Source of the DNA: Opisthocomus hoazin
Taxonomy: Eukaryota > Chordata > Aves > Opisthocomiformes > Opisthocomidae
Assembly: GCF_030867145.1 (NCBI RefSeq)
Contig: NC_134429.1
Coordinates: 15,562,677-15,626,676 of the forward strand
Direction of reading: 5' to 3'
DNA: 64,000 nt
Shown here: positions 1 through 58,576 of the stretch, in pieces
Position numbering within the stretch: the stretch's first letter is position 1
Layout: each line of letters starts with the position of its first letter
The notes under the pieces: generated by a model
Database searches by the model: none
The model's input: the letters and a program-made list of their open reading frames with translations, nothing else
Told to the model about the DNA's origin: nothing
Position numbers and translations under genes: made by a program

Positions 1-150
1 GGAGGTGGCCCTGGGGAGAGCAGGGGGACATGAGGGGGAGATGGGGAGAGATGGCGCTGGGGAAAGTGAGGGGACATAAGGGGGACGTGAGGGGAGATGG
101 CACAGGGGAGAGCGAGGGGACATGGGGGGAGATGGCACCTCGGGGTGCTG
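1..150. repeat. G-rich minisatellite, cut by window edge
   Basis: About three degenerate copies of a roughly 45-bp purine-rich unit built from the words ggggagag, gaggggacat and gggagatggc. The array runs off the left edge, so its full length is unknown. The G runs on the plus strand could form G-quadruplexes. No coding role is visible. Confidence 0.7.
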
Positions 151-2606: not shown

Positions 2607-2668
2607 AGAATCGTAGAATCATTAAGGTTGGAAAAGACCTCTAAGATCATCAAGTCCAACCATCACCC
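2607..2668 (-). mobile_element. CR1 LINE 3' end fragment
   Basis: The minus strand carries the CR1 3' tail signature: the words ggttggactt, gatcttagaggtc and ttttccaacc, followed by repeats of gattctacgattct. Only about 60 bp can be assigned. The insertion is old and heavily 5'-truncated, the usual state of avian CR1 copies. Confidence 0.8.
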
Positions 2669-2830
2669 CATCAGGGTCTGAACCTCTCTTGGCCATATAA
2701 AGGGCTGCAGATTTAAAAGTGGTAATGCCCCAATTCAGACTGGGACCATCCCAAACAGGAACACAACTGTCACTGTGGTGAATTTGCACTTGTAGGCAGT
2801 ACCACAAGAAAGCCACCTTCACAAAGTAGA

Positions 2831-3165
2831 ACAGACAAAGCCAACTGCTCAAAATAGTTTTCAAACAATCAGAGCATTTAGTCTTTAAACCATCTCCCCA
2901 CAGAAGAAACTGCAGCCAACATTTGGCTGAATGAAAATGAACAGGGCTGTAGCAGCCCACACATTAAAACCTTCCCCTTTCCCACCTCGAGAAAGGGTGG
3001 TCAGAGAGACAAGGCCAACCGCTCAAAATAGTTTTCAAACAATCAGAGCATTTAGTCCTTCAATCATCTCCTCGCAGAAGAAACTGCAGCCAACATTTTG
3101 GCTGAATGAAAATGAACGGGGCTGTAGCAGCCCACACATTAAAACCTTCCCCTTTCCCACCCTGA
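2831..3165. repeat. Tandem duplication, unit about 175 bp
   Basis: Two head-to-tail copies at about 2831-2990 and 3006-3165, offset by 174-175 bp. Shared words include gctcaaaatagttttcaaac, cagaagaaactgcagccaac and gctgtagcagcccacacatt. The copies differ by scattered substitutions and a one-base indel, so the event is not very recent. I recognise no gene or transposon in the unit. Confidence 0.9.
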
Positions 3166-4059
3166 GACCAGAATTCAAATTGTAGTTTTGCCCTCCTAAT
3201 TAATATCTGCCTTAATGACGTAACTTAGCTAGAATAGTGACAACAGCATCCCATGTAGAGCTCTGAGCACGTGAGGAGGAAACCACTGCCCAAGAAGTGC
3301 TTTGTCACAGCAACTGATGCACAACCCTTCGCGTTTTTCAGTGTCTCCGCTCACCTGGTACTAACACCGACTGCTCTCTGCATATCTGAGATTTAAAATG
3401 GTCAACAAACTCAGTGCTTGTCTCAAGGAAAAGTGCATCTGTTTGACATGCTATGAAAAAGGAATTACTACTCCCCGAGATAGGTGCTGCCGCTTTGGGT
3501 AAGCTGACTGCGCCACGAGTTTCAGAGGAGGAAGATCCTCTACTCCCCCTTTCCAAAAGCTGTTCTGTTACATGACACGAAGAGAATGGGACTTTAAAAA
3601 AGTTATTTCTAACTAAAACTGCCATGAGCTTTCTAGGGATATAAATGCCAATTTGTTGATGTCCCAAGAGATTAGCTTCCAGCTCCAGAAAAATCAAACC
3701 GACCGTCTCCTGGCTGGAAATCAGGGGTTTACCCAGGAGAGACGAGGAGTGCCTTGCTCATTTTTCCAGCAGACAGCGCAGCGGCCAAGCGCTACGTTTT
3801 ATATCGTGCTCTAATGCTCTTCCACTTCCAAGTCCTGTCTGAAGGATTCCACAGCCCATGCCCGTAGAAGGGGAATACCTGCATTTCTCACATCTGTTCT
3901 CAGGCCCTGCCAACTGGAATCATTTTAGCCACAGATTTCTACTCGTTATGTTCAAAATGGTAACTTTTATGTTAAGGAAATTCTCTTCGCTCTGGAAAAA
4001 GCACCAGAGAAGGATTTGAGTGCAGGGACGCTGACCTCAGAAATACAGACAGACCAATC

Positions 4060-7000
4060 AAGCAACATTATGATAAAGTGTTTATTCATTTTTTTTTTAA
4101 ATATCAAATTTTTTTACACATCAATTTCGTTGATAAACAGTCCCCCAATATTAATAAAAAAACAAAAATCAAAAAAAAGAATCAAGTGTGTATTACTTTG
4201 GGCAGAACCACATCCCATTCTCTGATGACACGACCACTCCTCCCTTCAGCCACCTGCGAGGACAGCCGCAGTATGTTCAGCCCAGAAGAGTAAATGACAC
4301 AAATGCAACCAACTTTAGGATTCCTGAGTATTGATTCCCTCAAGTTCCTTAAGTGAGTCTGTAAAACTCTTAAGCTAAAAAGCATCAGTCAGAGTAACCC
4401 AAACGGCTACGCATTTGGATCACGGGCTAAGCCTCGTCTACACAGTGCAGGAAGAAATCTCTTGAGTGCTTCAGAAGGGAATGATGTACACGAAACCGAC
4501 CCCATTTCCCAAGCTGGCTTCCAAGAGAGGCAGGCAGAAATACCTCGATTTCTCCTCTTAGAATTCACGTTAGAATTCTGGGGAGCAGTTCGGCAAGAAG
4601 TCCAAGTCTGGTGAAAAGACCTCTAGGGTCCGTTCCTCCTTCTATTTGTAAATGGCATAGTGTTTTAAAGAAAACTTATATGGAAGTTAAGCATTCAGCA
4701 AGTACACTTGAATATTGCTACTTCTGAGGAAAGGAGGAGGCAAGAGGGAGAGACAAAGACAGAAAAAAGGGAACGTACCTAGGAGGTACAAGGTTAACAG
4801 TCCTGGAGACCAAGTGTCTACGTAGAAAGTTGAACATACGTAGCAACAAGGCAGAGATTGTCATGAAAATGCAGCATAGCTCAGCTCTGTCCAGCTGCAG
4901 GTAAACATGCCAGGGACCATCACCAGGATATATTTCCTCCTCTTGTCAGAATTATCTGTGCCCAGAAACTTTCAGATGTCGATATTTCACTAAACACCAC
5001 CTCTAAACTCACCTAGAGCCCCACATACAGAAACACGCATCCTGTGAGAGGCTGAGCAAATTCCTTCAGTATCTTTACAGAAGGGAATACATCTCAGAAA
5101 CCAACAGCAAGGTACATGACCACAGTGGCTTCAGGAACACCCAGAGACAAGCTCTACAGACCAACGAGGGTCCCCACAGGTGCTGGCATCTTTATGAAGC
5201 AGCTTCCCAGTGTTGCTTCGTTCTCTACAGATGGACTTTCCATACTGAAGTCCTTTTGCTGAGCTGATGTGACATTAGTACATTGGAGCACTGACGGACG
5301 AGGAGGGGGAAGAGAAGAGAGTGAAGAGCCTTATTTTAGGCCAGGGTACACGGCTGCTTGGAAACCTGAACAGCTTTTGACGCTCACTTTGTCCCCTGCT
5401 CTGGCCAACAAGCTGTAGCAGTCTGCCATCTGTGCTTAAACCAAAGTATTCCCACCTCATGGGCCAGGTAAGCACAGAGACCAGTTAAGGGATTGCTAAA
5501 GGCTGAGCAGAGGATGCATGCATACAGCAGAGAGGACACACATGCACATTAAAACAGAAGACAACTTTTAGACAGCATTTGCTAAATACATGTCCTATTA
5601 CATTTTATTTTAACCTTAAATACTCACCACTGCCCAGATTTTCTCCAGCATAAGTCTTGCTCCTAAAAAAACTATTCTCTAATTTAGCAGCATGTAGCCG
5701 TTCACTCAAAGCAAGGCTCCGAAATTAAGAAATTCAAATCACCAGGCTTGGACCAACTTGATGAAATAGTTTTACAAGTATTTATCGGTTGGGGGTCAGG
5801 CTTTGTTTCTAGCAGTTTGGAGAAAGTTACCCAGGAAATTCTAGCACTATTGATAAATGCTTCAGTACAGCTTTGGCAGAAGGGCAGATTTCAAAAATTG
5901 TATTTGACAAAGAATAAAACTGAGCATTGAAGCAAATTGGCTGATGCTCTAAAGCTTTCATAGCATAAATTCTGTATATGCAATCTAAGTAAATGTGGCC
6001 ATAAAACTAGAGCCTTTAACCAGTTTGGTACAAAGCAGCAGCACTTCATCTAGCTATTAGCAATTGCTTCTAAAAACATAAAGTGTAAATACGGAAAGGG
6101 TATAAGATTGAATGGCTAACATTGGATGCTTCACGAAGCTGGCAGCAGATGAACCAGCAGGCTACGGGCGCAAAGTCAGCTCTCGTGCATCCGAGGGCCA
6201 ACCTGCAGCTGGTATCTGCATACCAGATCGGGGCTGCTCCAAGGACCCCCTCATTGAGACCCGTAGCGGGAGGCAGGAGCAGACTCGGCCACTGAGACTG
6301 AGCATGCGAGAGCTGGGAGCTTCATTCTTGTTGCTGCTTTTGAATGTGAACCAGATGCAGAGGGGAATGGGTCTAATACATCTTATCTCCTAAGGCTTCT
6401 AGAGAGAGATCTGATGACACTGTACTCCTGTACCAGCACAAGCGTTACCCTTTGCAGAGGGGGCTCTCGCTGATTTGAGGTGCCTATCGTAAGGAGAATA
6501 TTTTAAAAACTTCAGCAGGGGTAACTGACCACCCGCCCAGTAAAGATCACAAAGCTGTAGTCTTGCCTCAGTAACTCATTTTGAACGGAGCTTCAAGCAA
6601 ATTACAGGATGCTGCTCTGGCAAGGGGTCCCCGAACACTGCTTCCTACATACGCACAGAGCAATGCCTGCTGCCAGCATCACAAGTAGTGGGATATGAGC
6701 TAAACGTGCCTGGGAGCCGCAGGCCTAACTGGTACGTCCACAGCTCAGGCAGAAGCTCCATGTGACAGACAGAGGAATGCCTTAAAGCTCTTCGTTATTC
6801 TAAAGGATCTCCTGACTGCCCAAGCGCCTAAGAAAAATCTGACAACCACCGCTCACTGACATCAGAAACTCCTGCAAGTTCACAGATGAAACCAAATTTG
6901 CGTTGTTTTTGAATGCTACCCTGAATGAAAAAAGCCTAGCATACACATAGGCAAATCTGCTAAGCAACAGGGAAAACAAAACACCAGGGACACAGGCCGG

Positions 7001-8516
7001 AGACAGTGATAACAACAAATGAAAGCCATGAACAAAAACGTATTTCCAGCCGCTGCTGACCCATCGCTTCAGGTTTAGCTCAAAGCAGAAAGTTCAAGAT
7101 GAACACTTGACACAAAGCCACTTCTCAGATTTGCAAGTGGGACTAAGTAAAAGTTCCTACTTAGAATTTGGTATCGTGTTTCAGCCACACTTTCCTTCCC
7201 CTTCCCCAGCCCCAACAGTGTTCTGGGGCTCTGCAGAGCATCACAAAGTAGCTCATCCCCCCCCCAAAAAAAAGCACCTGGAAAGGGCATCCCACAGCAC
7301 AGCCTCGGTGAGTCCTCATCGTGCAGGCAACTCACCAGGGACTTCCCAGAAGGCCACGATGGTTGTAACGCAGAAGCCACGTCAGTGCATTTGTTTCATC
7401 AACCCTATTGGGGAGCCCTCACTCTTTAAGAGGTCTCAAATTCGTACCCCAGCTCCAGGCTTTCTGCAGTTTGCATTTCCACAGCCGAGAGGCTGATCAT
7501 CCCCAAACATCGAGACAAACCAGAGCAGAGCAGACTTCTTCACTCCCCGGATCACATCCCCGCTCGGTGCGTAGAGAACGCAGCCACTGAAACAGTTCAT
7601 TCTTCCAGGGGCAGAGGGGGATTAAGAGCTGTAACACATGGTTGGTTTGCTAAACAATTTCACTGTTAAGGTTTTGCCTTAAAGTGGTTGAGCTTGTTCT
7701 TTTGTATGGGGGAAACATGATGTGGGCAAGAATAGGAAAAAAAAAAAGTAAAATACTCCTTTTCCCTTCCCCTCCCCGCTACAATTAATACCAGCACATC
7801 TTCAAATAAGTTAAAATGTCTCTTAAGTTTTGGTAGCACCAAATTCTATCCCTTCCCTTCTTCTATCCCCACGTTGTAAACTTGAACACGCTGGCCCAAG
7901 AGCATAAAAGGGTTTGGCAATAATAGGCATCAGCCTTCCCCATGCACACACAAAAACGCCCTCCACCCCTCGCTCCGCTTGCCGTGCTATGCGTCTGTGG
8001 GCACCTACATACCTTTAGTAGCTGCCACAATAGTTTCACCAGCGTCGCCGATGGACAGTGGGTTACAAAGCGCAGGAGAGCTAAAACAAATCCACAAAGT
8101 TCATTGGGGCAAGCGCTGTTTCGCGTCCGCACCGTACCGAACTCGGCGTGCAGCTCCTGTCCCGTGCGCACGGTCAATTCACTTCGCAATCCGCTTCGCG
8201 CTGGACAGGGCGGTGACCTTAAATGGCTTCTACTTTTTATTCGTAACATTGGAGCTTCCTCTAAAATTGTACATTTAAATGAAAACTTTAATTTTAATCC
8301 AGTATGCATAATTAAAAGCTATCCTGTCCACGCAATGCTAGGAAGCTTTCTTTCTTTTAAAAGGCCAAATCTAATGAGTGAAACAGAAGAGACAAGTTAC
8401 TTTGGCTGCAAATAATTAAAAATTGAGCTCAGCATTCTGCTTGTACATGATGATGTACATAATTCAGATATGTCCTTTGAAAGAAAAGATACCCTAGTCA
8501 GCTACCTCTTCCGTAG
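4060..8516 (-). other. Probable 3' UTR of the DDI2/RSC1A1 terminal exon
   Basis: This AT-rich stretch follows the RSC1A1 stop codon and shows no convincing coding segment or splice pattern. Minus-strand AATAAA hexamers occur at 8236-8241, 5604-5609 and 4081-4086. The last has a GT-rich region just downstream and is my choice for the distal end, giving a 3' UTR of about 4.4 kb. From memory, human DDI2 transcripts also have a long 3' UTR. Shorter forms ending at the nearer hexamers are possible. Confidence 0.5.
4081..4086 (-). terminator. Poly(A) signal AATAAA, candidate distal end of DDI2/RSC1A1
   Basis: Minus-strand AATAAA, followed about 30 bases downstream by a GT-rich segment (ttgattggtctgtctgt). 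This is the usual arrangement of a vertebrate cleavage and polyadenylation site. Use by this gene is inferred from position. Confidence 0.5.
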
Positions 8517-10414
8517 TTACGCAGGAACAACAATACTCTTGGCTAGCAAAATGAGAAGAGCCAGATCTGCATTTCCATCTGCTTGTTCCAAAGCCTCAAG
8601 AGCTTCCTGCGCGGTAAAACCTGCGCCGAGGATCCGATCAACATCAGCCACGGGGAAAGCAGGCGGTGGAGAAACACCCGAGGTCAGTCCAGCACAGCCA
8701 GCTGGTGGGCTCAGTAGTGGTTCCTCAGGCCCACCCAAAGGCTGCGGACCCTCAGGAGCAGAACTGCTGCTTTCCCCAGGTGCTCCTGTGCACAGGCACC
8801 CAGCATCTTGAGGCGCACCCTCACCCAAAGCAGGTTTAGAGAAAACGGATGCGTTTTGCTCCAAAGTCGGACTAGCTGGACTCCAACAACCTTCTGCCAA
8901 AACCTCTGCCTCCTCAGAGCTCTGCTGCTGGTCAGAAGTCGCCGCAGAATTCACCACGACCAAATCACTCTTACCTGAAAACTTCTGACTCTCTAACACA
9001 CCTTCTCCGAGAGCTGACTGCATGTGACTGACAGACCCAACGCTGATGTCTGCGCCAGAAACACAAGGCTGTTTCCCCTCCGCTCTCCCACCTTCAGACC
9101 TCACCTCACAGAAGGAACAACGCTGTTCCTGGCTGGCTGCATCTGAGCCTTTCTGCTCATCATCAGAAAGCCCCTTCTGTTGTGCTGCTGGCTCTGTGGG
9201 AACCATTTCCAGCTGAGAGACTTCTTCAGAGGTGAGGATTTTACCTTCTCCTTTCCGACTGATAATCAAGAGTTTGTGCAGCTCTTTCAAGGCTGATGCT
9301 AGAGAGAAGCATGGGTCTTCTGCAGGCCTTCCTGGATCCATATCCAGCTGATGGAAGCTGGAGGGAGAAAAGCTGTCTTCAGCTGCCAAATCAGACAATT
9401 GATTATACTTTGTAGGAATTTCACTAGTGCTTTTAGACTGCAGGACATCACCGGTGGACAGCGGATCACTCAAGGAGGATGCAGACTTCAGCGACTCCAC
9501 CTCCATGGAAAAGGCGTCTGAGTTCAGGTCAGACACACTTCTGTCCTCAGCCTGTTGCTGTAGCTCACTTGCTGAGCTGTGCGCTTCATCTACAGACTGC
9601 TCAGCGACATCTATTTCCATGAAGGCTTCCGTATGCGTGTAGCTACAGGAGGCTGACATTCGGATACTCCCTTTTACAGAGCAAAGACCCGTGTTCTCCA
9701 GTCCATCTCTGCTTGTTTCTGTAGGAGGATTTTCTGGTTGGCTGGCTTCTTCCACAACGGGTTTCTCCACCCCACCACGGCAAGGAGGTTCTGGGTCAGT
9801 TGTCTCTGTTTGCTTCTCCAGATGATCCTTCTCTGGTTCTCTGCACATCTGATGGTCTACAGGAAGCTCACGCTCTTGCTCCTGTTCCGCCCGTTCTGAA
9901 GACAGACATTCACCTTTATTTTGCCCATGCTTAGCAGCAGTGTCAGCCAAACTATTTTCTTTTCTCACTTCCAAAGGATGTTCCTGACCACAGTCTTGTT
10001 CTTTAGCGTTACATTCCTTTAGACTGTCAGCAATAAATGTTTCTTTGAGTGTCTTCTGTGAAAGGCAAGCTGGATTGCAACAGGTTTCCTCCCCCGTCTG
10101 GGGAGAAGGGTCGTTATTTGCCAAGGAAGCGTTATTGGAAGGATGCTGTAATAAGAGAGGATGCTCTTTTTCTGGGGATATCTGGCATTCAGTTGAAGAC
10201 TCAAAAGACTTGACGGCTCTAGGATCAATGGGCTCTGCGAGACTAGATTTGGATGAGCAAATTGAAGCAGGGGCAGAGACAGAACGATCAAGTAATTGAT
10301 TTGTGGGATTACAGATCTTGGAATTTAGTCCTGAAGACTGGACTGGATTTTGAAACCCATCAGAAGCTGGTAATGAGGGCATTTCCAGTGAGGTAGTTTC
10401 TTTGTCACTATTCT
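8517..10414 (-). CDS. RSC1A1: RSC1A1 (RS1) reading frame in one exon, in phase with DDI2
   Basis: Regulatory solute carrier protein family 1 member 1. The human protein (617 aa, described as intronless) modulates SGLT1 and other transporters and carries a C-terminal UBA domain. Here the ATG at 10382 (MPSLPASDGF) opens a 621-residue frame. It is largely low-complexity, acidic and Ser/Glu-rich, with conserved islands such as TEAFMEID and SALKELHKLLIISRK. The last 44 residues are a UBA fold (DVDRILGAGFTAQEALEAL, then GNADLALLILLAK, ending IVVPA). The human regulatory tripeptides QSP and QCP are not present in this frame. The exon is open for ten more codons upstream to an acceptor (ctgccttctgttag, exon from 10414), so it can be the last coding exon of DDI2 as well as a stand-alone frame. 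Identity is secure; which product is made is inferred. Confidence 0.93.
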
Positions 10415-13400
10415 CTAACAGAAGGCAGAAAGAAAGAAGTGGTCAGGACACAGAAAAAAAACAGTTTTCACTGTAGTACCAAAAACTTATAAACCGATGG
10501 CTATAAATACCTGGTCTGTGGCCCACTCCAGCTGCAGTAAACACACACTACATGCATCAAGGCTTCTGACGTTCTGTTTGGGTTAGGAAACAAACACACC
10601 AAACTCGTGTTAGCACTCAGAGCACACCACATGCATGGTTATAGTCCTGCGACCTCGCAGCTCCCCTCCCGACTGTCCCTCCAGACAAGCGCACAAGCAG
10701 CAGGAGCTGCTCAGGGTCACTGCCTTCCAGAAGGAGTTCTGCCTGGGAAATTTGTTACATCAAGTCAAAAATAACTCTGCTGGAGAACAATTTAAAGGCT
10801 GTTCTGTACTACGTACACTGCAGAGTGCTCTGTGGGTGATGCTACTCGGCACAGGGCACGAGTCTAGCACTGTACTGGTTTGTCCTCCATACAGCTGAAG
10901 ATATTCAGGAGCCACATTTCGGGGAAACGAGAACTGAGATGGCACCACAATTCTCGGGGTGTGCTCCCAGCAGCTATGGCCTTGCCATGGCTAGTGTCAG
11001 CGCAGGACAGGGAAGGCGAGGAAACACCAGCTTGCTACAAAAGGGAAGCGTCAGGATCTTAGGGTGAAAGGCAGAAATCCCCAATAGGAACTGCTGCCCG
11101 AAGCTGGCACGAGCAAAGCAAAGGAAGGGAGAGCTAGCAGTCAAACCCAGCTCACTGCTCACTGCTCCACACGGAGAACGGATGAATTGCAGATCTCTAT
11201 CAGCAGCACCAAACACTGGGTCTCGTTATCAGGACAGTTTAAGCAAGTTCACTTATCTTGCTAATAGTCTAATCTTGCTAAGGTATCAGCTCTCCTGATC
11301 TTGTTAAATTTCTAACATGACCTTTGCTGTCAGAGCGCCTGGTCTTCCATTACAGCCCTACTGTCCAGTGTCAGACATCCGAACGGCGATCCAGATTTTC
11401 TGCTGCGTGATTTGTTGCACTAGTTCCCTTTCTCTTTCCAAAGGCCTCCAAACTCAGTGGTCTTAAACACTGTTTCACCTTAAGTCTTTCTCTTTTTACC
11501 GATACCCAGGTGCACTGGCGCACAACTAACCATGCTCACGGGTACAGCCAGGATTGCCTTGAAGTTCCACACCAGGGAAGAAGTCTGCCTTTTCCACCCT
11601 CAGCTACCTGTTTCTTTTATTCTCCGTTAAACAAAAACGGTGCGCTACATGCTGCGGGTACTGCACCTCTGATCGATACGCTTTGGTATAACGCACAGCG
11701 GCCGCTGCAGAGCGATCCCGTCTGTTGGCTGCACATCTGGTCTTAGTGCAGCTGCAATAACTTGGCAACGCTGGAGTACTAAAAAGCCAGAATTATCCTG
11801 CGGATTGTCAAACCGCTCCCCTTTCATAGGGGCGGCAAAGAGGCTTGCGACACCGGATGAAAAGCGGAGGGATCTTTTTCTGTTTCTGCGCGGCAGGATT
11901 ACGTTCCCGCTCTCTGCTGCCAAGCCAGTCCTTCAGAGAGGAAGCAGACCTGTCTTTTGACTCAGCGGTAACAAGGGTCTGGTCAGTCAAACCCGTCCCA
12001 GATTTGCAGTCACTCAGACAGCAGCAGCAGCTGGTGTTCTGCCAAGTGCTCCTCAGCGTCACCCTGCCGAGACCCACCACCATCCTCCTCCCAGGGTACC
12101 TACAGGGGTTGAATCCCAGCCCCATCGTGGGTATCGATCCAGCTAACGCCCCGAGCAAACCCTTCTCCACAAAGCGCACTATCAGGGATAAATTCCTCTC
12201 TGTATTAGGAAAAGCCCGAGTTGCGCAGGTGACGGCAGTGCCTTTCTTACACCGCGCCTGTCTGGATGAAAAGCTGTACAGGGGGTAAACTACCTGAATA
12301 TGCCTCCTCCTACAGCAACTGTCGTCTTGCTGCCAGTTTTGTAAATCCCCCGTAATCGCAGCCTTGTTACCAGTGGTGGTGGTGGGGAAAACACTGCATC
12401 TTGGCAGAAAAGAGCAAGCTCACAGACAGAAACGAAGCAGACGTGGAGGATCCAGACCGCAGTAAAACACACCAGGACTGCACTATCACCTCAGCTGCCT
12501 TGCCGTAGGTGTCGAAACACCAGCAAGCCAGCTGACAGAAATTATGAGGCTTGCTGAAGTGGGCTTTGGGGGATTAAATAAAGCTCAAGAACAATCCAGG
12601 TGTGTTCAGAATGAGAACTTTAATCGCCTACAGATGTACACAGCGATTTCTCTTGTACCATCTACCAGAAGGCAGCAAAAATTCAAGCTGTTATGAAAGA
12701 ACACAGGCCTTGAAGCGAGCTGAGCATCCTTAGTGCTGCATTTTGTGCTCTCTCTCTCCCTCTCCAGTTTCCTGTTCTTTCTCTCGGTTTTCCTGGCACC
12801 ATCTAGCAGCAGCTAATAGTTTTGGAAGAGGGGGAGAGGGTACACATTAGTATTTTGACATCTTAGGATACAGCCAACAAAAGCCTGTGGGCCAGAGGCT
12901 TATAATAAATCTACGACTTACACACGGTCCATCTGAACAAGACCTACCTTAGCTCTGTGCACTGGTGTTCTACCAGCATTAAGGGAATACAGAAAATGGA
13001 TTTCCTGTTCTCATAAATATTTTACATTCCTCTAGGGTTCAGCATCAATGGAGAGCGGCAGACTGCTGATTAGTCTGAACAAAGCCGCGTGGTCTTTAGA
13101 ACCGTATTGGTACATAAGCAGCTTTCATTTAAGTCATTTTAGGCACTTTTCATTTTAAAGCACTCGACTAAAATGCTTTTATTGTAAAAAAATCATATCT
13201 TTTGGGCCAAGGTTTGCTTTTTATTTGACAATTTCAGCAGAGAACTACATCCAGTCAACTACGATCTCTGCAAAATCTCATCCGAAATGGAGAGACACTG
13301 TAAAAATCAACCCAGGCTTCACCAGGCTCAAAGTTTTAACAGGAAAAGAACTAATATTTACATCTGCACATTTTCTCTGCCAGGTTATGTGGAGAGACGC

Positions 13401-15000
13401 AAGCCCAAGCTACCAAGTCCGACCTGTAGCTATGCCAAAAACTGACAGGGGCAAGGTCAAATCTATGTTTGCTTTCCTGTCTCCTTGCTGCAACTTCAGT
13501 TAATAAGCATTCAAATTTGCCTATAAAAGTCAAAGATGTAAACCATTTCTGGCTGATTCACTAAAGCCAGGCCTTCCTCTCGAGGCTTTTACATCTCTGG
13601 AAAACTTACATTCGTAGCATGGAAGAAAACTGGTCAAAGGGACTAACAAGTGCAGTCCCATGCTCCCCTTAATGTAAACAACTTTGTTCTTTGCAAGAAA
13701 GTCACTGCTTGCTCTTTGGAGCATCAAGCAGCAATTGTGAAGTGTTAAAGAAAAATTTCAGTGCATGACAAGTGCTTGTGCATATATACACACACAGTTA
13801 AATCCGGTCATTGCATTTCAATTTTAAACATGAGCGTGTTAAGAGTCTGAAAAAATAGCAATAAAAATGTTGAAGACATCAACCTTGTCAGCTTAAACAC
13901 GGCCTGGCAAAGAGTTTTGCATGTGTGTGGGAAGCGGGATCTTACTGTGTGCTCTCAGAGAAAAAAATAGCAGTAAAACTCGAAAGTCTCTATAAAACAC
14001 ACGCATACAAAATGTTATCTTTAAAAGTTTTGGAAAAGGCCTAAGGAATACACTTTGCAAGGTATTCACAGCTTCACTGTAACAGTGGGGGAAAATTTAA
14101 CGAAGCTTTCCTTTAGTCAAAAACACACGCTGAAGTTAAGGGAGGAGCTAAACAGAGAATCTGGGTTTCAGACAGTTTGGCTTGTGGCTCAGCTTTCAGC
14201 CATTCTGGCATCTCCACTTCACTGAATTTTGCAGCTACCAAAATCTTCTCTAGCCCAGTCACTCTGCATTTGTGCAGATATGGATTCCAGAGGCACAGGG
14301 AACAAAACTATGGCGAGGGTGAAAATTCTCCTTGCAGATCACATTGAAGGCTGATGATATACGTTAGGACTTGAATTCAGCTGCTTCTTTTTTGAAATCT
14401 GGAGCACCAGTAACCTTCAGCGAGAGGAGCAATTCACCTTCCGAGGGCACAAGCACCATTCCAAGGAAAAAACACTGAAACTATCTCTAAAAATTGTCAT
14501 GAACTTCTGTCCAGAAATTTGTATTTACTGCTACAGCTCCTCTATTTTTATACGCCACAGCTATTAAGAACAGGATTTGTGGAATCCTCCACAAAGCTGT
14601 CCTTACACGAGGCTGCTAAAACCCCACACAGCCGAACCACGTCCCTGCCTAGGCACTACAGCTCAACCCAGGTGAACGGGTGTCAGAGACAACCATTTAT
14701 CTCCACATCTTCAAAGGTCAAGAAACCAGAGCGGCTAGGAAGCTGCAAGGAGAGCACAAATTAAACAGCAAGCACCCCCAAACGCCTTCATGCAGACAGA
14801 TTTTACTGACAGAAAGGAAGAGAGAAGTGCAATTAGAGGCCACGAGCAAAAGTAAAGCCCCCTTCTCTCCGCCATTTACTTGCCGGTGCTGGCTTAGACT
14901 GTATCTCCTAGGAGATGAGAAGGGGGACTGCTGGCAGACATCCTCATGCACAGCAAGAAAACTAGGCAGATTACTATTTCAGCTGGGCTTCTCCTAGTAC
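10415..15000 (-). other. Intron between DDI2 exon 8 and the RSC1A1 exon
   Basis: A 4.6-kb intron with donor gcag|gtacta at 15001/15000 and the acceptor next to 10414. I looked for a separate short terminal exon giving the human DDI2 ending ERQKP and found none I could support. Reading through the donor adds 37 residues ([10 protein letters not shown]...) before a stop near 14894, so a short DDI2 made by intron retention is possible. The interior is AT-rich and shows no transposon that I recognise. Confidence 0.6.
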
Positions 15001-18000
15001 CTGCTTCCTCTACGGACTTCTGTATTGCTTCTGCTAGCTCCTGGTCTGCAATCTCCTCCGGCCGCACGTCTTCCCGCCCGGCCCCGTAAGCCAGCCGGGC
15101 ACACTCTGGGAGCTCGCCCTCCGGGAGGAAGGTGGTCTGCGAGCCAGTCGTGCCGATCACTAGTACATTCTTCTTGAGATCAATTGAACACTGCGAAAGA
15201 GCATCGAGACATCAGGGGCCTGCGTAAGAGCGAGTCAATTCCCAGAAAAAAAAGGAGAAACCAGGTTAAACAATCCATTTCCAATGGGAACAGCTCACAG
15301 CAGCCAAGCATCGGCCAAGAGCACCAGCTATAAGCAAAGGGCCCTGTATGACTTCATTTGTAATAAATCATTCAGTTGGAAAGCTCTGAGCATCTTTGAT
15401 CAGAGAAAAAAAAAAAAACTTCAGGGAGCAGCCAGACACCCTACAGCTACCCATGATGTACGTAGTGTACATGCTCCTTTCATAACTGGCTGGAAGATAA
15501 CCCACCACCAACTCTCCCCAGAAAAATCCTAATAAAGTCCCAGGCAAGGCATCTATGTTGCACTTAGCACTCAACTTGGATGAGCTAGTAACTATTTCAA
15601 AAGAGGTTTTGATACCTGATGCCTCTTAAGCATATCCAGTCCTAGAAGCATGTCCATGGGCTGCTCTTCAAGGATTGAGAAGGAGCACGCCAGGAAATCC
15701 CCTTCAATCTGGACCTGAGCTGAAACGCAAGTGAGAGGAGTTACCACCTTGCAATGCCACAGCACAACAAATCTACTTTCTGCTCCTGCATCTCCTGGGA
15801 AAGGTCCACACAAACCTGCTGGGCAAATCTGACGTGCTGTTTCGGTCACAGAAATCCTAGCCTTGTGCAAGCCCCAGGGACTGTCAGGCCTGCCTTGGTC
15901 TCCAGAAGTTAATTATTTTACAAGCTGACCTGCTCTAGAGCCTGAATTACTGCTTATCTAACCCCCCAAGCTAGGGGAGTTGCGTACAGCTCGTTAGAGC
16001 ACAGGTCTAAAAAGCAGAAACAGTGAAGAGAATCGATTTTTCAGACAATAAAGACAATCTTCTCTAAGAGCACACAGACAGCCTTCTCTTCCCAAAGGAG
16101 TATGAAACACTCCACAGTACTGGAACCCTCCCTCAGCAACTGCCCAACAGTCCCGCCCCAGCCAGCGAAGATCCTGCTATTTCACATTAGCCCTGTCTTT
16201 TGCACCCAGAGCGAACACGTCCTCTACGTCTGCAGGAGCTGAGGACTCCCTCACCTAAAAGTGTTACGGTAATTCCGTTAGAAAAGCATTAAACGAGACA
16301 GAAGGCAGAGTACCATGCCCGAGAGAAACAAACATATTGCAGATGCACTTTTATTTTGCTCCGCGGGAGTTTCTAACAATTGTAGCATTAAACCAGATAC
16401 TCCTCGGTGCCAAGACTGTGGGAAAGGCAGTCTAACTGCCTCTAAAGCTGCCCAAAGAAGAACACCGGTACTTACCTAAGTGCACTCTGCCAATTATTTT
16501 CTGCGTCCCTACACCTTTAGCAATGCCAGCCCACCGCCGATCTACCAGCCTCATTATGTTGCACCTTTCAGCACAAGCTTGGCTCATGATGGTCATCTGG
16601 GCACCTGCCGGCAACAGAATTCCTGTTAAATCCTGACAGCTCATCACAAATTAAAATTCACTCCTGGAAGGGCTTGACATCTTGCACTCAGCATCCGGGA
16701 AACCACCCTGCATCAGCAACTGCACTAGGGCACAAAGGCCTCCTGTGAATCCCACCGCGTGGAATCGACCGTGTACACTCAGATCAGCACGGACAGCACA
16801 GTACGTACTACTGCAGAGCTGGAATGACCCCAGGTACTTTCCCTTTAAGGCTGTGGATGGGAAGCAATACATTAGAGGCATGCAAAATCCCCCCCATCTG
16901 TAAAATGAGGTAAGACACAAAAGCGGCAGCGACCGTTCTGGCGTCGGAGCCCCAGAAATTCCCGCCGGAGCCTTGATCTGGGGTGTTCAAGCACTCAGTG
17001 CGCTGCTGCTCTCAGCAATTTGCTCTGCTCGCCTTAAACAACGCCCAGGCTGCTCCCAGGTTTTAGTTTGGTGCTTCAAAAGCCTGTGATGCGGTGCTTC
17101 GCGGAATTTCCGGGCAAAACTTCTGGAGCGTTTACCGTCTCCCTCAGTGAGGGAAAGGAGAGCGCGGAGAAAGCGATGAAAATGGGGGCAGCTCACCTGA
17201 GTCAACGAAGGCTTTCACTGGATGGCCGTTGACTTTGCAGTTAATATACAGCATCACCACCTGGCCAAAGCTCTCGGGGGCCTCTTCCATTGCTATTGTC
17301 ATATTTTCTTCAATGTTTTGTTGCCTGAATTTAGCAGAGAGAAGAGAAAACAATCAGACCTTCCAGCAGCCAAACACGACAAGCACCCCTGCGGTTTACA
17401 AGCAGATTGGTAATCCCACCCGCTGCAGCTCACCTTACAAACAGCACGCTTAAACCACAGCAAAGACTGCTTCGTTAGCTAAACACAGGCTTCTTAGCAC
17501 AGGGATTGCTAGTAATGATCTTCGGATTAATCCAGAGACACCAAGTCCCTCCCCAGCGGCCATGGAGACTGCTCCTTCCAACACCGCACCTGCCTCACCC
17601 TACAGCACCAAACGACCTTCTGTTAGCAATGGAAACCTGTCACCACAGTTAACCCAGAGAACTCATGAGCAAAATACCTGTCTATCTGTTCATCACTAAA
17701 ATACAGCGCTGAGGGCACACGATGAAGATGCTGCCAGCAGCTACAATGCTGGAGTCCCACACAGCAGCTGAATGTTCAAACCCTCCAACGTCTCCCTGGT
17801 ATCTTTCATTTTCCAGGCACAGGAAGGGAGGGAGGTGAGCAAAACCGCAGTGAGAACACCACCACAAGCACAAGCCCTCGCTGCAAATTCAAGCCTACAG
17901 AAGAAACGCTCTTCAAGAAGCCCATCACAGCCCCTGCAGTAATCTTGGAAGTGATGGGTGTCTGTAGCGACTGCCTCCAACATAGCTTTATCTACCAAAA

Positions 18001-21000
18001 AGGGAAAAGGCCTTCCAATTTTGATGCCATTGCAAGTTTCCCTCGTCAGTAGGGGAAGGGGGAAAACCCCAAGCTCATCTCTTACCCATCTTCTGTACCG
18101 TGGTAGCCTTCCCACAAGAAGATGAGTAGATGCGGTCTCTTGGTGGGGAAGGAAAAAGCAAATAGCATCAGAGACCTGGCTTGCCTGGGAGCCGAAGCAC
18201 CCTGCTACCCTACTGCCAGTCTGTCCTGCTCCACATACTCGTGAAACAAAGAGCCACAACATTTTTCTGCCTTTTATTATTTAGGCTTAAAATCGCATAA
18301 ACAGCAGTTAATCTCCAGTTTTGGTTTTTTTGTCTGATCTATTATTCTGTTTTTCTCTGTGCTTCATACTCTTTCCACCTAAGATACACCTGAAGGACAG
18401 AGATTTGTCTCAAAAAATATGCTGTGTGCGGTAGCTTACAACCGATCTTGGGCAGAGCGCAAGGAGTTCAGAGAACTGCGGGGCGGGGACAGGGGACTGC
18501 TGGGTGCCCAAACTGTTCCCTACCAGCTGCACAGCCTTGGGCACAGCGCCTTTGCCTTCTTCCACAGATGAGGGGACAGGTAAGCGTTCCTGTGCCTCCG
18601 AGCAATGTTCTGCTATCCACCAATGTGTATGTTCTGCTTTCCTAAGCTAAGCATTTCGCCGGCAGCGATCAGTCATAACGCAAGAACGACTCTTGCCACT
18701 AACGAATTTTGGTTATGACCAGCTAAGAGCCTGTATCACAAAGACATTTCTGTATCGGGGAAAAAAACACCAGTCATGTTCTGACTCAAGCATTTATCAC
18801 TCCATTTAAGAAATCAAGCCTCAGCCCAATGCAATTACATTTGCAAGACAGCAAGAGGGAGCGAGCGCTGATGAGCAGAACATATTCCTACAGAACATCT
18901 CTTCTGACAGCAGTGATGTTCCGAGTCTGGAATTAGCCAGAGACACAAAACAATTAGCAGCGCGCAAAACCCAATCTCGAAGGCAGTGGGGAGAAATGAC
19001 GCCACGTTGCTGTGCGGAGAGCGCAGCTTAGAGACTAACACAGGCCCAGCTCTTCGCTTCAGAACATGCCCAAGGCACCCAAGAACCGCCTCTCGGGAGG
19101 ATCTTGGCGAAGCGCTTTCCACAGGCGCTCTGGCTTCAGAGAGGAGCAGCTCAGACAGCTCTGGGACCGCGCACACGTGGAAAGCAGCGCTGCCACCTCA
19201 CGATCTGTGCTCAGCTCGGTACATATAAAGGACGGGGTGCGCCTACGCATCCCCGAATCCCAATCTTCCTGCATGCAAAGGTGGCTCAGAGCATTGCCCG
19301 CAAGCAAATGCATGTCTTAAGGCAGGATCTAAACACGCTCCTTGCATCCTCCAAGCAAAAAGGACCACGGGTGGCAGCACCCTGGGGAAAAAAAGCGCCA
19401 TGAAGACCTCCAGAGCCGACAAGTGACTTTGGTTTGCTACCTTATGTCTTCTTCGATCTTGGCCTGCGCCTCGAGATCAAAAGGGTCAGCTGAATAGAGT
19501 CGGATCCTCTCTTGCTCCCGCCGGGCTCGGTCCTGCTGCTGCTCCAGCAACACCCTGGTGAATTTCTCTGCAGTAACAAGGAGATACAGAAACGCTTTTG
19601 ACTGGAAATTACTCTGACAAATCAAGTTCTGGCACAGCAAACTCTTCTTTTTATGCCAGCACGCACTCAGGGGTAGACTCAGCAGCACACGCACAAATAG
19701 CTTCATCTGAAGGCAGCACGGACAGACCTCAAAGGATCGGTGGCAAACCTGGGAACCCGCTGAGATGAAAAGCAATGGGACAGAGCTCCTTCTCCTTGTG
19801 TCTGCCACCCAAACTCAGCACAATCAAACTCAATTTCCTTGCGCATACATTTTTATATGGGAAAAAAACAGCAAAAAACATGAAAGACGACAGTATTTAA
19901 AACAAAGAGCTGCCATTAAAATGGGAATTGATTCACGTACTGCAGCAAGAATTGCCTACACAATACTCCAAAAAACCCAGCTGCAAAACCAACAGATAAA
20001 TGAGACCCGGAGCAGAAATCAGGACTACAGATCTTGCATAATTCAAACAAGAAGCTTGAGTACACGTGCATTTTGAAACAGCTTCAGGCAGAGATAGAAG
20101 GGAGATTTCACAGCTCGCAGTAAGACAGCCCATCTACAAGAACAGCTTGCAAAATCCATGGCGTTTTACACTCAGCCATCCCCAGTATGACAACAGTCTG
20201 TAGATGCAGCAAAGAGCAAATGCAAAATTGTGAGACATAAAAAGGCTAACAACAAAACTTACTTTAAACCCAAGCAACATTGGCAAAACCAGAGACATTA
20301 CAATCCCTAAAGCTGAACGCCGACTGCTGAAATCAAGAGGTCCTAGGTGGGATGCCCGCTTCACAAAGCCCAGCCGCACGTTTTAAGGACACAGATTTTA
20401 CATCCCCACTCTTTGGATGGCCTCTGGCTGTTTTTTACTACTTGGAGGTGATCACATACGTTCCCAGCAGGACTTGGCAGTAAATTCAGTTCTGTAAACA
20501 CAGAAGGTTGTGGGTTTGCTTCCAGAAATGCAGTTCCCATGAAGAAGCTCTCTGGTTCTAAGGCTGTTACGTGTTCAGGAAGGCACTGGGTACGTTTTCT
20601 TGTTGTGCTTTTTTTTTTAAAAATTAGGCTTCTGTATAGCAGGTGCCTTCAAAAGTGCCTGCGGTGCACCCAGCAGAGTCACACAGCACCTATCTATGCG
20701 TCTATTTGGGCATCAGAGCCAGAGCTGAACTGGATCCGTGCCCAAACACCGACAGCTGCAGTACGGAACGAAGAGAGCAAAACCAGATCCAACCACTTCC
20801 TTCCGACAGCTCCCTGCGGCCACTTGGGACTACAAATGCACACCTGAATCAAAGTTTAATGCGCACAAGACATGGCAGATCAGCAGACGAGCCAGTTCGG
20901 GGTGTCTTGGGCTTAACCTCTCGTTTTTTTCTGCCAACAGCAGCGCATCTTCTCAGGTGATGTGAAAAATCTCTCTCCTGCACTACAGACGCAGCGCTCA

Positions 21001-24000
21001 CAGAAGTGTGACGAAGCTTGAGCGCGTAAGGGACGTGGTTTTAACTCTGGATATCAGCTAAAGTGAAAATTAAAAAATTAAACAGGCCGACAATATCCAC
21101 GCAAGTTCATTTCTAGCTTCCTTTGACCGAGAGAAATCACTAGGACGTAGCCCTGAAGAATGAAAAAAAGTCTCCTGCTAGAAGCTTCTCCTCTTCGTTC
21201 ATTTCCCCAAACTCCAAGGATTTATTTCCTAACTGCACGCCTCGCAGCGGTTTAGAAGCACATTTCCTGATGCCCAAACCTGCGCTGTTCTCATACTGAA
21301 AGGACATCAGAGCTCAACGCTGTCAGCACATGACGAATGGGGGACCAACATCAGCTACTCACCTGCAGAGGAGGAGAAGGACGCGGTACCAGGCTTCAGC
21401 CGCGCCCAAAATACCTCAACGCTTTCAAGATGAACACTTCAACATTTATGACCGTTCCTATGGGAAAAGCTCCCTGAAGGCACCATTTACTCATCCCTTT
21501 TCCTCTCCCTTGCTGACATCCACTTCCACAGCAGCTAACCATCATAGGCAGAGTAGGTTTCATAGCGTACTGCTCTCTGTTGAGGTCTCGGTGGGCTCTG
21601 GGGCGCAGCAAACGCTACACCACTATTGGAAAACATGCATTCAGGGAGTCTTCATACAAAAATTGGGAGCTGAGCCACCTGCGTACGCAGAAACTCGACT
21701 TAGCTGTGCATCTGATACTTGCCAGTAGGGGACAGAGGACATCAGAGAAGCCAAGCAGGAGAAATATGCCCAACTTGCCACAAACAGTCTTGTTAGAAGG
21801 AAAGGAGCTCCACCTTGAGTACTGCCAACTGGCACCTTTTACCAGCATCATCAATGAGCTGGCAGCGAACAGAGCAGCCCATTAGAAACCTGTGCCTGCC
21901 TTTTGTTAGAACTGAGCTCAAACAGATTTAAAGCCACCTCCCGCGGATTAAAAACCCAACTCACCGAGGTCTCCACTGAGCAACGCCTCCGCCAAGGGCG
22001 GGTTGCGCTCCTTCAGCAGGGACAGCTCGTGGGGATTCGCAAGCAGCATCTCCCGCAGCAGCACCGGGTTGTCCAAACCCTGAGGGAACGAAGGCGCATC
22101 GGGAGGCGAGGGGCGAGGACGCTGTGCTGGGGGCTGATGCTGCTGAGAGGACGTCCCGGGAACCGCGATGCTGCTGAAGTCTATCCTCGGCAGACCTGGA
22201 GGGGAAAGAGGGCAGAGGTGTCAGCACTTCACCTTTACAATTATGCTTGAAAAACACAGCGGAAAAACCACGGGAAGGATGAGCTGCTCTTAATGCTACA
22301 GTATTAGACCGCATTCTGCGAATGGCAATTCCTGCCAGAAGCGTGGCCGTGTGCTCAGGTCACTGGGTTAGCAACGGTAGCGCACATTTATGTAACTGGT
22401 CCAGCCTTCCGTCTGGCCTGTTTTTATATCCCCTGAAATGCACTTACTGAATCACAGGCTAGTTATTTCCAGCTTCACAAATGCCAATACCACACGGAGG
22501 GATCGCAAGGCTAAAGCCATGTCTCGAAGGCGCATCTGATTCTCTCAGATGAGAGAAAAAAAAGCAGGAGGGAAAAAAAAAAAAAAAAAAAAACAACAAC
22601 CCAAAACATTTCTGCAGACCTGCATTGCAGCTACCGACGCTCCAGCTGAGGCAGGAGGCTGGAGACCTCAAACAACGCTCCCACATCCCTCTCAGCCTGC
22701 GGTACCTCCTTTTCCAGCAACATTTTATGGCGGGGATTTGCTAGGAATCGCTGCAGCAGGCAGGGCAGAGGAGCAGGGCTCCGCTCAGGCGTTATCCGAG
22801 GAGCCTTTCGCATGCACGCACGATTGCATAACGGGGTTTGTCAAGACGCGGCTTCTCTGGGTATCCGTCACGGCAGAGATTCAGAGCCTGTTCACGCGTC
22901 CGAGCCGCACAGACCGCGCGTGACTGCGCCATTACACCGCGTGGGAAGGGAACCAGCGGTCGCAGGACAACTCACACGCCTTTACAAAAACGGCTCTTCT
23001 GGCCCAGTTACCTTTCTCGCTTTCTCTGCATTTCCCCCAAAAACAGTAAAATGGTATTCGCTTCCTTAGAATTAAAAAAACCATTAGATAACAAGCCCCT
23101 TGTCCAATTTTAAAAGCCCCCCACCTCATCCCTTGCCCCCTTCCTTCCTACGTGCTTTGCCCACGAGGTACTAGAGGGGACTAACACGACACGGAGTTGG
23201 CGTTTGACGAATATTGCGACGTTTGGATGCTCAGAGCAAAGGTTAGCTCAAATCCTTTCTCACCTGGGAAGCGGATGGAGGGCCGTGGCTCTACGGTCTC
23301 CTTCTGTCGCAGAATCACCACATCCCCGTCTTTCAAGCCATAGGAGGCCAACGATCTGTTGTTGTCAGTTAGAGGCCGCTCCGCATAGACTATCTGTTCA
23401 TGGAGAGAGGGAAGGGACAAACACCACGCGTGACAAAGTGGACATCACACCCTGGGGGTTTTTTATTCTTATTTTGTCAGGAAAGCGTTCTGGTAAATGC
23501 TCTGGACTCGTCTCACGCGTCGGAAGGGGTGCAATTCTCGCCACGGGCGCGGACAGGCCCTGCCAAAGCACCTGTACACCTTCAGGCACAGAAAGATGAC
23601 AACAAGGAAGCGGTGGGACAACACCACAGAATTGGTCTTAGCGAAACCCAGCAGCGGTTTCTCAAAACCCAGCGTCTCAGAGAAGGGCTGGTCTCTCTTT
23701 AATTAGAGGCCATGGTTTCAAAAAGCCTCGCACCAGGGCTGTTAGCCATACGTTTCCAAAATCCCATCTCTAGGATTACACAAGTCACAGCCGTCTCCTA
23801 CAGCGTTATCTCCCCCCACGTCAGCACCTACTGACCAAGGACCGACTGCATACATGCAGGCAGCGTCAATCAGGATTGATCCACGGATGATCCAGCCCAA
23901 TATCTACAATCTCTGCCTTCTCCCACAACGCAGTTCCCCAGAACAACCAGTTTTACAGGGACCTCAGTGATTAGCTCAGTGATTTCCAGTTTACTCCAGT

Positions 24001-27000: not shown

Positions 27001-28157
27001 CTTTGGAGACCGCTTCCCTCCCAGAACCAACCGAACCAAGCGGCTCGCTGCAGGCGGAGCAGAACGCCGCGGGCAAAGCGTCACGAATCGGCACGGCGAG
27101 GGAACGCGTCCACCTCACGGGCTGCCGGTTCAGCAGCTTTTCCGCCGCTGACTAATATTTGCCCAGCTGGAATAACATTTCATTACTTCAGACTCGGAAA
27201 AGGCTCAGGAAGCGAAAGCCACGGCCACAAAACTCGGCAAACTCTGCCGGGCACGGCCAGCACCCCGGGAAAAGGAGCTGGCATTGCCCCATCCGGCAAC
27301 GCATCGCCCCGCTGATAAACGAGTAGAAATCACAACAACAAAAAAAAAAAAAGGTGGGATGGAGCCCAACCCAGTGAGTGAACCCCAGCGCGAACCCCGG
27401 CGGGGCGGGCGGCAGCCCCACGCCTCGCGCTTTGGCGGAGCGAGCCCCCAGTTCGGGCTGGAGGTGGATATTTGGTGGGAAAACAGGCAGACGCGCCAGC
27501 CGGTCCCCGCACCTCTACTGAAAAAAAAAAGGGGGGAAAGCCTCAACCCGCCCTTCCCGCCCCAGGAATCTGACGGGACGGACAAACCCGCTCCTGGGCA
27601 TCTCGGCCGCGTTCGCTGGGGTCTGAGGAGACCGCGCAGCCTCACCTTCCCCGCTCCGACTCCTTCCGTGTCAAAACGCCAAATTCCTCTGAAAACTCAA
27701 CAAAAACCCTTGTTTTTTTTCTTCCTAATCTCCTTTCCAGCCCCACCGCGGGAGAAGACCGAGCCTTTCCCGGAGGGACCCCGTTGAGCCGTCGCGTCAC
27801 CGCGGACCCGGAGCCTTCTCCTGAGAGGAGAAGGAGGATCCTGAAGGCAAAAGGCCGCGATTCTCCCCAGAACCGAGGGCCACCCCCACCCCTGTGACCC
27901 CCACCGGGGGCTGCCGAGGGGACGCGAACCCTGCGGGAGGGGACAGGGCCGCTCGCAGCCCCGGGGACCCCGGCCCTCCCCCGCCTCTCCGCGGGTCCCG
28001 CTGGCGGGCAGGGCCCGACCTGGCTCTCGGCCGCCGGGATACCGGACTCCAGCTCGCAGAGCGCCCGGAAGTTCTGCAGCTCGAAGTCGGCGTCCACCTG
28101 GAGGGAGAAGGTCAGCTCGCTGCGGTCGCGGCGCAGGCAGAACACGGTGAGCAGCAT
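15001..28157 (-). CDS. DDI2: DDI2, ubiquitin-like and retropepsin-like protease/shuttle
   Basis: DNA-damage inducible 1 homolog 2, an aspartyl protease and proteasome shuttle that activates NFE2L1 and acts on ubiquitylated substrates in cytosol and nucleus. Coding exons: 28157-28020, 23393-23264, 22195-21965, 19567-19441, 17324-17197, 16604-16476, 15719-15616 and 15190-15001 (1,177 nt). All have GT-AG borders and the phases agree throughout. Residues 1 to about 76 are the UBL ([20 protein letters not shown]). A helical domain follows ([20 protein letters not shown]), then the RVP domain with the catalytic DSGA motif near residue 250, split across an exon border, and the flap/core segments [14 protein letters not shown] and [18 protein letters not shown]. 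The last exon ends [19 protein letters not shown] plus one base. That phase fits the RSC1A1 exon exactly. Human DDI2 is 399 aa and ends a few residues later. The RVP domain is a host domain, not a virus copy. Confidence 0.95.
24633..25230 (+). mobile_element. CR1 LINE, 5'-truncated, in DDI2 intron 1
   Basis: About 600 bp of the CR1 3' region in plus orientation, antisense to DDI2. It begins inside the ORF2 tail (words aggagtgtggccagca and gtgctgggctcccca) and runs through the 3' UTR to ttccaacccctgccatgctg and a short gattctg tail. The remaining open frame reads into typical CR1 reverse-transcriptase C-terminal residues ([20 protein letters not shown]). It is inert by truncation. Confidence 0.93.

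Positions 28158-53307: not shown

Positions 53308-58576
<5,269 letters not shown>

Follow-up and report, generated by a model that had tools for sequence, protein, structure and literature searches.

Whether DDI2 and RSC1A1 are two genes or two parts of one is the question raised by a stretch of Opisthocomus hoazin DNA (NC_134429.1; "the window" refers to the whole 64,000 nt analysed) in which both lie on the (-) strand (Table 1). DDI2 is described as the protease that activates NRF1 on proteasome failure (PMC5001836). Vertebrate DDI2 is treated as UBA-less in the published accounts drawn on here, and the field asks how such a protein binds ubiquitin chains (PMC9062259). Derivation of the RSC1A1 UBA from DDI2 has already been published (Siva 2016, PMC4962041); in the wording of that paper, RSC1A1 was inserted early in vertebrates as a separate gene. 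What is new here is a predicted in-frame junction between the two and a candidate stop cassette.

Reconstruction of the DDI2 exons gives splice borders with AG at all seven internal acceptors and GT at all eight donors. The sequence-only reading had joined exon 8 of DDI2 to the RSC1A1 exon, and the frame that it described is exact to the base: the exons from 28157 to 15001 (1,177 nt) and the segment 10414-8517 (1,898 nt) together form 3,075 nt, open across the junction for 1,024 residues up to a stop ending at 8517. The last base of exon 8 (15001) is the first of a split codon and is followed by a GT donor. The acceptor at 10414, which follows ...CTTCTGTTAG, supplies the two bases that complete the split codon (G+AG = Glu), and the border residues of the predicted fused protein are EEA|ENSDKETTSLEMPSLPASDGF. 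Of the three reading offsets tried, offset 0 alone is open throughout, at 1,024 aa, against 421 for offset 1 and 393 for offset 2. Frame agreement by itself has a one-in-three chance. The ten codons between the exon border and the RSC1A1 ATG (10382) are all open; these were rejected as evidence by themselves, since so short a run is often open by chance.

Table 1. Features of the DDI2/RSC1A1 locus (window coordinates)
Feature	Position	Strand	Remarks
DDI2 exon 1	28020..28157	(-)	ATG at 28157; UBL
DDI2 exon 2	23264..23393	(-)	UBL
DDI2 exon 3	21965..22195	(-)	helical domain, PF24669
DDI2 exon 4	19441..19567	(-)	helical domain
DDI2 exon 5	17197..17324	(-)	protease; active-site D-S at exon end
DDI2 exon 6	16476..16604	(-)	protease
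DDI2 exon 7	15616..15719	(-)	protease
DDI2 exon 8	15001..15190	(-)	protease end and UIM core LAEAIQKS; donor at 15000
Exon 9 candidate	10511..10573	(-)	63 nt, E-R-Q-K-P-stop (stop 10559-10557); 3' end inferred
Exon 10 coding part	8517..10414	(-)	predicted in-frame fused tail: acidic linker, UBA, stop
RSC1A1 ORF from own ATG	8517..10382	(-)	621 aa
UBA domain	8520..8663	(-)	final 48 residues
Poly(A) hexamers past RSC1A1 stop	8236..8298	(-)	at 8298, 8292, 8241

Splice sites were scored with an approximate consensus table, on which acceptor 10414 scores 9.42, the fifth highest among the 373 AGs from 14990 to 10300. It outscores six of the seven DDI2 acceptors and nine of the 14 acceptors of DDI2 and DDOST combined. 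Four other AGs in intron 8 score higher still and are presumably unused, which counts against the fusion reading. The introns of the gene contain 20 equally strong AGs in 16,322 nt; at this density, chance alone would place 0.074 of them in the open 60 nt, or 0.025 once the right phase is also required. The junction at 10414 moderately exceeds chance.

A second acceptor, absent from the sequence-only reading, lies upstream of the first at 10573 (25th of the 373 AGs) and leads to E-R-Q-K-P-stop. As an internal exon this candidate exon 9 would be frame-neutral. Its end was placed at the best donor-like site between 10573 and 10414 (CAG|GTATTT at 10510; score 6.0), which outscores the donors of DDI2 exons 1, 4, 7 and 8 (4.22-4.88), scores below all six scored DDOST donors (7.14-10.52) and is outscored by nine donor-like sites within the RSC1A1 frame. 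With donor 10510 unused, exon 9 would continue into RSC1A1. The resulting short DDI2 would have 397 residues (44.5 kDa), lack the UBA and, counted past residue 358, carry a 39-residue tail. Human DDI2 (399 aa) has a tail of the same length (RVP construct to residue 360) and shares the UIM core. Because the ERQKP-stop exon is present and the human tail length agrees with it, the fused protein can be at most an alternative product. The earlier proposal that RSC1A1 is the ancestral C-terminal exon of DDI2 is therefore borne out in part: the layout of an in-frame last coding exon and a UBA whose best single-domain PDB match is that of yeast Ddi1 both favour it, but a single DDI2 end does not hold.

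No AATAAA or ATTAAA was found between 10573 and 10414, so RSC1A1 most likely lies in the last exon of a single DDI2 transcript. Three such hexamers occur within 280 nt past the RSC1A1 stop; intron 8 holds another four, which count against one transcription unit. Mammalian expression arrays place DDI2 and RSC1A1 under one target (human cluster TC01000193.hg.1, 'RSC1A1; DDI2'), and a mouse array probe is labelled 'Ddi2 /// Rsc1a1'. The bird's own genome (1.48 Gb, 415 contigs) has one RVP locus (three exon matches, all here) and one RSC1A1 match. The junction would be proved by a retrocopy of the long mRNA; no copy with a protease or RSC1A1 part was seen in this genome at E <= 0.001.

The proposed model for expression of the locus, which we consider on balance probable, is as follows. 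DDI2 and RSC1A1 form one transcription unit, from which inclusion of exon 9 gives the short DDI2 and skipping of exon 9 gives the fused protein; both forms are presumably made. Exons 1-8 would encode the UBL, helical domain, protease and UIM. Exon 9, spliced rather than retained, would bring the stop, and the RSC1A1 exon, as exon 10, would supply the ancestral UBA, preceded by a long linker rich in Ser, Glu and Pro. Inclusion of exon 9 would yield the 397-residue DDI2, as would use of acceptor 10573 with no splicing beyond it; either way, the RSC1A1 frame would remain towards the 3' end of the mRNA. Skipping of exon 9 (15001 joined to 10414) would give a UBL-HDD-RVP-UIM-linker-UBA protein of 1,024 residues. 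Its domains would be ordered as in yeast Ddi1, and it may act as a protease-bearing UBL-UBA proteasome shuttle.

It is possible, if unlikely, that the single transcription unit makes no fused protein. Acceptor 10414 would then be used only after exon 9 or never, RSC1A1 would be a second reading frame towards the 3' end of the DDI2 mRNA, poorly or internally translated, and the open frame from exon 8 would be a relic or chance. The ERQKP exon and the human tail length are consistent with this, as is the literature drawn on here, which knows the short form alone. As the 63-nt exon keeps the phase of exon 10, the in-phase border requires no selection for fusion; in addition, the exon 9 stop lies 46 nt ahead of the exon end, a position that usually escapes nonsense-mediated decay. 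However, the codons ahead of the RSC1A1 ATG are still open (little evidence, given their number), and the RSC1A1 frame begins 78 nt (spliced) or 174 nt (unspliced) past a long first frame, a distance at which a second frame is translated inefficiently.

The RSC1A1 ATG has G at -3 and human RSC1A1 begins at the same ATG, which makes a separate RSC1A1 product plausible. The CpG observed/expected ratio round the RSC1A1 start is low (0.37 in both 11000-10500 and 10500-10000); the block at 12000-11500, 1.1-1.6 kb upstream (GC 0.53, CpG ratio 0.74), could be a weak promoter. That RSC1A1 is a separate gene inserted early in vertebrates, driven from a promoter of its own within intron 8 of DDI2 and having a fortuitous in-frame border, fits the wording of Siva 2016 (PMC4962041), the own ATG, the end-to-end match to human RSC1A1 and this CpG-richer block, but is improbable given the low CpG near the start, the shared array target and an acceptor directly ahead of the frame (chance expectation 0.025) that an intronless gene does not need.

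The predicted long form (110.5 kDa) under the favoured single-unit model contains all four domains of yeast Ddi1 (Vsm1) and invertebrate Ddi1-like proteins in the same order: an N-terminal UBL (PF00240, 27.7 bits, cut-off 25.4; 2n7d, E-value: 1.2e-38), a helical domain ahead of the protease (PF24669, 2e-28; 5k57, E-value: 4.9e-46), a retroviral-type aspartyl protease (PF09668, 5e-52; D-S-G motif as FVDSGA) and a C-terminal UBA. The UBA scores 24.0 bits (PF00627, cut-off 22.4) when the final 70 aa are scanned alone and falls below the cut-off in the 1,024-aa protein (19.1) and the RSC1A1 ORF (scanned as 620 aa; 19.9). Among the nine PDB sequences matched, its best single-domain chain is the yeast Ddi1 UBA. 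Two single-sequence AlphaFold models of the UBA, both of low confidence (pLDDT 65.8 and 61.7), show three helices and were not used as evidence; Foldseek searches with them gave no PDB match at E<=0.001, and the 29 weak matches of one search include no UBA. An NCBIfam scan gave no match, and no Rfam family was found in the window at gathering score. Unlike in yeast and invertebrate Ddi1, some 590 residues of linker and the UIM core would separate the protease of the long form from its UBA, and an exon with a stop could take away both linker and UBA. Relative to human DDI2, it would gain 631 residues past the shared border Glu, including the UBA.

A doubtful extension of the model is that the DDI2 UBA was never lost in vertebrates: a frame-neutral stop cassette would split the ancestral Ddi1 gene into two products, skipping would restore a protease-containing UBL-UBA shuttle, and RS1 would be the free linker plus UBA, its reported brake on Golgi vesicle release corresponding to the exocytosis inhibition by the yeast linker. 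Yeast Ddi1/Vsm1 binds the t-SNARE Sso1, and its exocytosis-inhibiting activity is reported to map to the protease-to-UBA linker (PMC5028754). Against the exocytosis link, Siva 2016 (PMC4962041) reports that human Ddi1, which has neither the linker nor the UBA, rescues the secretion phenotype of Ddi1-less yeast, and that complementation depends on the UBL and on the aspartate of the protease. If a splice form does restore the UBA, the question of how DDI2 binds ubiquitin chains is altered, and two bodies of work on exocytosis control, hitherto separate, would be connected. Knock-outs of one or the other 'gene' may in that case have hit both products; an RSC1A1 deletion would take the long tail of DDI2.

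The sequence-only reading had also cast RS1 as a transporter regulator, a role weakened in O. hoazin: the QSP tripeptide, reported as the active motif of human RS1 in SGLT1 down-regulation (PMC7462918), is absent from the 1,024-aa translation. The transporter role is therefore not to be assumed here. The RSC1A1 ORF matched four viral_contigs stretches in pattern only, none being a relative, as expected for an animal gene. Compared with human RSC1A1/RS1 (617 aa), it lacks QSP and shares an open frame with exon 8 of DDI2. The two align end to end with 32% identity, a comparison weaker than a database match; by eye, the best-conserved stretch is the UBA end.

The minus strand of the window was read from 32000 to 8000 and its exons were reassembled by script. 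In this reconstruction the DDI2 coding part is 1,177 nt in eight exons with GT and AG at the borders, the open stretch 10414-8517 contributes 1,898 nt, and the spliced DDI2-RSC1A1 frame runs for 1,024 codons to a stop ending at 8517. Translation of the joined frame with the acceptor shifted by one or two bases gives 421 or 393 residues, and therefore the border at 10414 is the sole working one; the in-frame join of exon 8 to RSC1A1 proposed in the sequence-only reading is exact. Frame agreement by itself has a 1-in-3 chance, and the ten codons ahead of the RSC1A1 ATG are too few to be more than little evidence. Acceptor 10414 adds weight to the case. Using a consensus table, it scores 9.42 (rank 5 of 373 AGs in 14990-10300), above six of seven DDI2 acceptors and nine of 14 in a DDI2 and DDOST set (the seven DDOST acceptors picked by eye). 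AGs scoring at least as high number 20 per 16,322 nt in the introns of the DDI2 gene, a density that predicts 0.074 such sites for the open 60 nt, and 0.025 once the phase must also fit. Because four AGs in intron 8 score higher and are presumably unused, the score is no proof of use.

The UBL, helical domain and protease of the DDI2 part are covered by Pfam and PDB matches. The 621-aa ORF aligns end to end with human RSC1A1 (32% identity, E-value: 1e-47). The second half is likely to be RSC1A1, a name that depends on this alignment. The hoatzin's own 1.48-Gb assembly has a single RSC1A1 match, and protease matches at the DDI2 locus only. The C-terminal UBA is a modest match: scanned by themselves, the last 70 residues reach 24.0 bits (cut-off 22.4), but the scores for the full protein (19.1) and the 620-residue ORF (19.9) stay under the cut-off. 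Among the nine PDB sequences matched, the top single-domain chain is that of the yeast Ddi1 UBA (18.5 and 19.1 bits); NUB1 is higher in total (21.3 and 23.3), with a best single stretch of 14.3 bits. Predicted structure models of the UBA are too weak to serve as evidence.

A second acceptor at 10573, preceded by ...CCTAACCCAAACAG, was overlooked in the sequence-only reading. Exon 8 joined to it translates by script as AA-CGT-CAG-AAG-CCT-TGA (Glu-Arg-Gln-Lys-Pro-stop). This acceptor is weaker (score 6.5, rank 25 of 373; above three of the 14 DDI2 and DDOST acceptors). The resulting short form has 397 residues, 39 of them after GELPE, the end of the solved human protease chain. ERQKP is presumably also the C-terminal end of human DDI2, the computed match being one of tail length. 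The human Ddi2 tail is likewise 39 residues, as the protease construct is reported to stop at 360 of 399 (Siva et al. 2016; PMC4962041). Given ERQKP-stop and the matching tail length, ordinary UBA-less DDI2 is also encoded.

The final codons of the short form begin 159 nt 5' of the RSC1A1 exon. Between 10573 and 10414, the strongest candidate donor is CAG/GTATTT at 10510 (score 6.0), which outscores the donors of DDI2 exons 1, 4, 7 and 8, scores under all six DDOST donors scored, and is outscored by nine donor-like sites within the RSC1A1 frame. If it is used, the exon 9 candidate is 63 nt, a multiple of three, and so the RSC1A1 exon keeps its phase whether exon 9 is skipped or included. The exon 9 stop sits 46 nt from the exon's 3' end, close enough that nonsense-mediated decay would usually be avoided. 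The following intron would be 96 nt; if it were retained, 10573 and 10414 would be alternative acceptors of a single last exon, yielding the same proteins. By eye, an ATG overlapping the stop of the short form (TGATG, 10559-10555, minus strand) opens a small frame that closes ahead of the RSC1A1 ATG; this frame could hinder re-initiation at RSC1A1.

No AATAAA or ATTAAA lies between 10573 and 10414. Downstream of 10414, one is within the RSC1A1 frame (9920) and three are closely 3' of its stop (8298, 8292, 8241), and the short DDI2 mRNA therefore most likely spans the RSC1A1 frame. Four more lie in intron 8, 5' of exon 9. CpG o/e is 0.37 in both 11000-10500 and 10500-10000. Within intron 8, CpG is raised in a single 500-nt block, 12000-11500 (CpG o/e 0.74, GC 0.53); it is the only place there that could be a weak promoter, or it is nothing. 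No long convincing coding frame was seen by eye in 1-8000, which may be a long 3' untranslated region of DDI2/RSC1A1.

The proposal that RSC1A1 is part of DDI2 is partly right and partly already in print: the predicted long form has the yeast Ddi1 domain order, but the stop-bearing end at 10573 had been missed. Siva et al. describe vertebrate Ddi as UBA-less and already trace the RSC1A1 UBA to DDI2. Likewise UBA-less is vertebrate or human Ddi in PMC5028754, PMC9062259 and a 2024 review (PMC11012796). The UBA in RSC1A1 is pointed out in PMC11774587. Published array tables give human RSC1A1 and DDI2, and the mouse pair, one shared target; another table gives them as separate entries. No mention of the in-frame splice was found in the portions of the open-licence literature covered, which is no proof of absence. 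What is new here is the candidate exon 9 with its stop and the probable 3' end common to DDI2 and RSC1A1.

The mechanism that we propose is that DDI2 and RSC1A1 are most likely a single gene of ten exons. Inclusion of exon 9 would give short DDI2, and skipping would give a predicted 110.5-kDa protein with domains in yeast Ddi1 order; as acceptor 10414 beats that of exon 9 (9.42 versus 6.5), it is plausible that exon 9 is sometimes skipped. A free RSC1A1 protein could still start at its own ATG, which lies 78 nt past the short stop in spliced mRNA and 174 nt past it in unspliced mRNA. We infer the RNA, protein and shuttling steps.

In yeast Ddi1/Vsm1, the linker between protease and UBA is reported to bind the t-SNARE Sso1 and inhibit exocytosis (PMC5028754), and RS1 is reported to slow SGLT1 vesicle release from the Golgi (PMC7462918). 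Because both activities fall in the same ancestral segment, these exocytosis brakes may be a single old activity. Two points speak against the idea: human Ddi1, which lacks the linker segment, is reported to rescue yeast (Siva et al.), and the 1,024-aa translation has no QSP, the motif to which the activity of human RS1 is attributed. Among five open-licence papers naming two or more of the three proteins RSC1A1, Vsm1 and Sso1, RSC1A1 appears in Siva et al. alone.

Neighbouring genes and repeats in the window
Feature	Position	Strand or orientation	Remarks
DDOST exons	31812-29035	minus	head-to-tail, 5' of DDI2 (by eye)
Kinesin motor domain exon	42806-43366	minus	PF00225, E-value 1.8e-49; presumably KIF17
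Long degenerate minisatellites	53946-55167 and 56767-57340		24-nt and 15-nt units
Interspersed repeats, taken to be CR1-like	25227-24622 and ~31500-30970	opposite orientation	by eye

By eye, under 1 kb separates the DDOST stop from the ATG of DDI2. Of two DDOST exons scanned, one passed the OST48_N cut-off of 36 with 56.3 bits, and the other, at 19 bits, fell below it. The minisatellites produce long, probably spurious ORFs.
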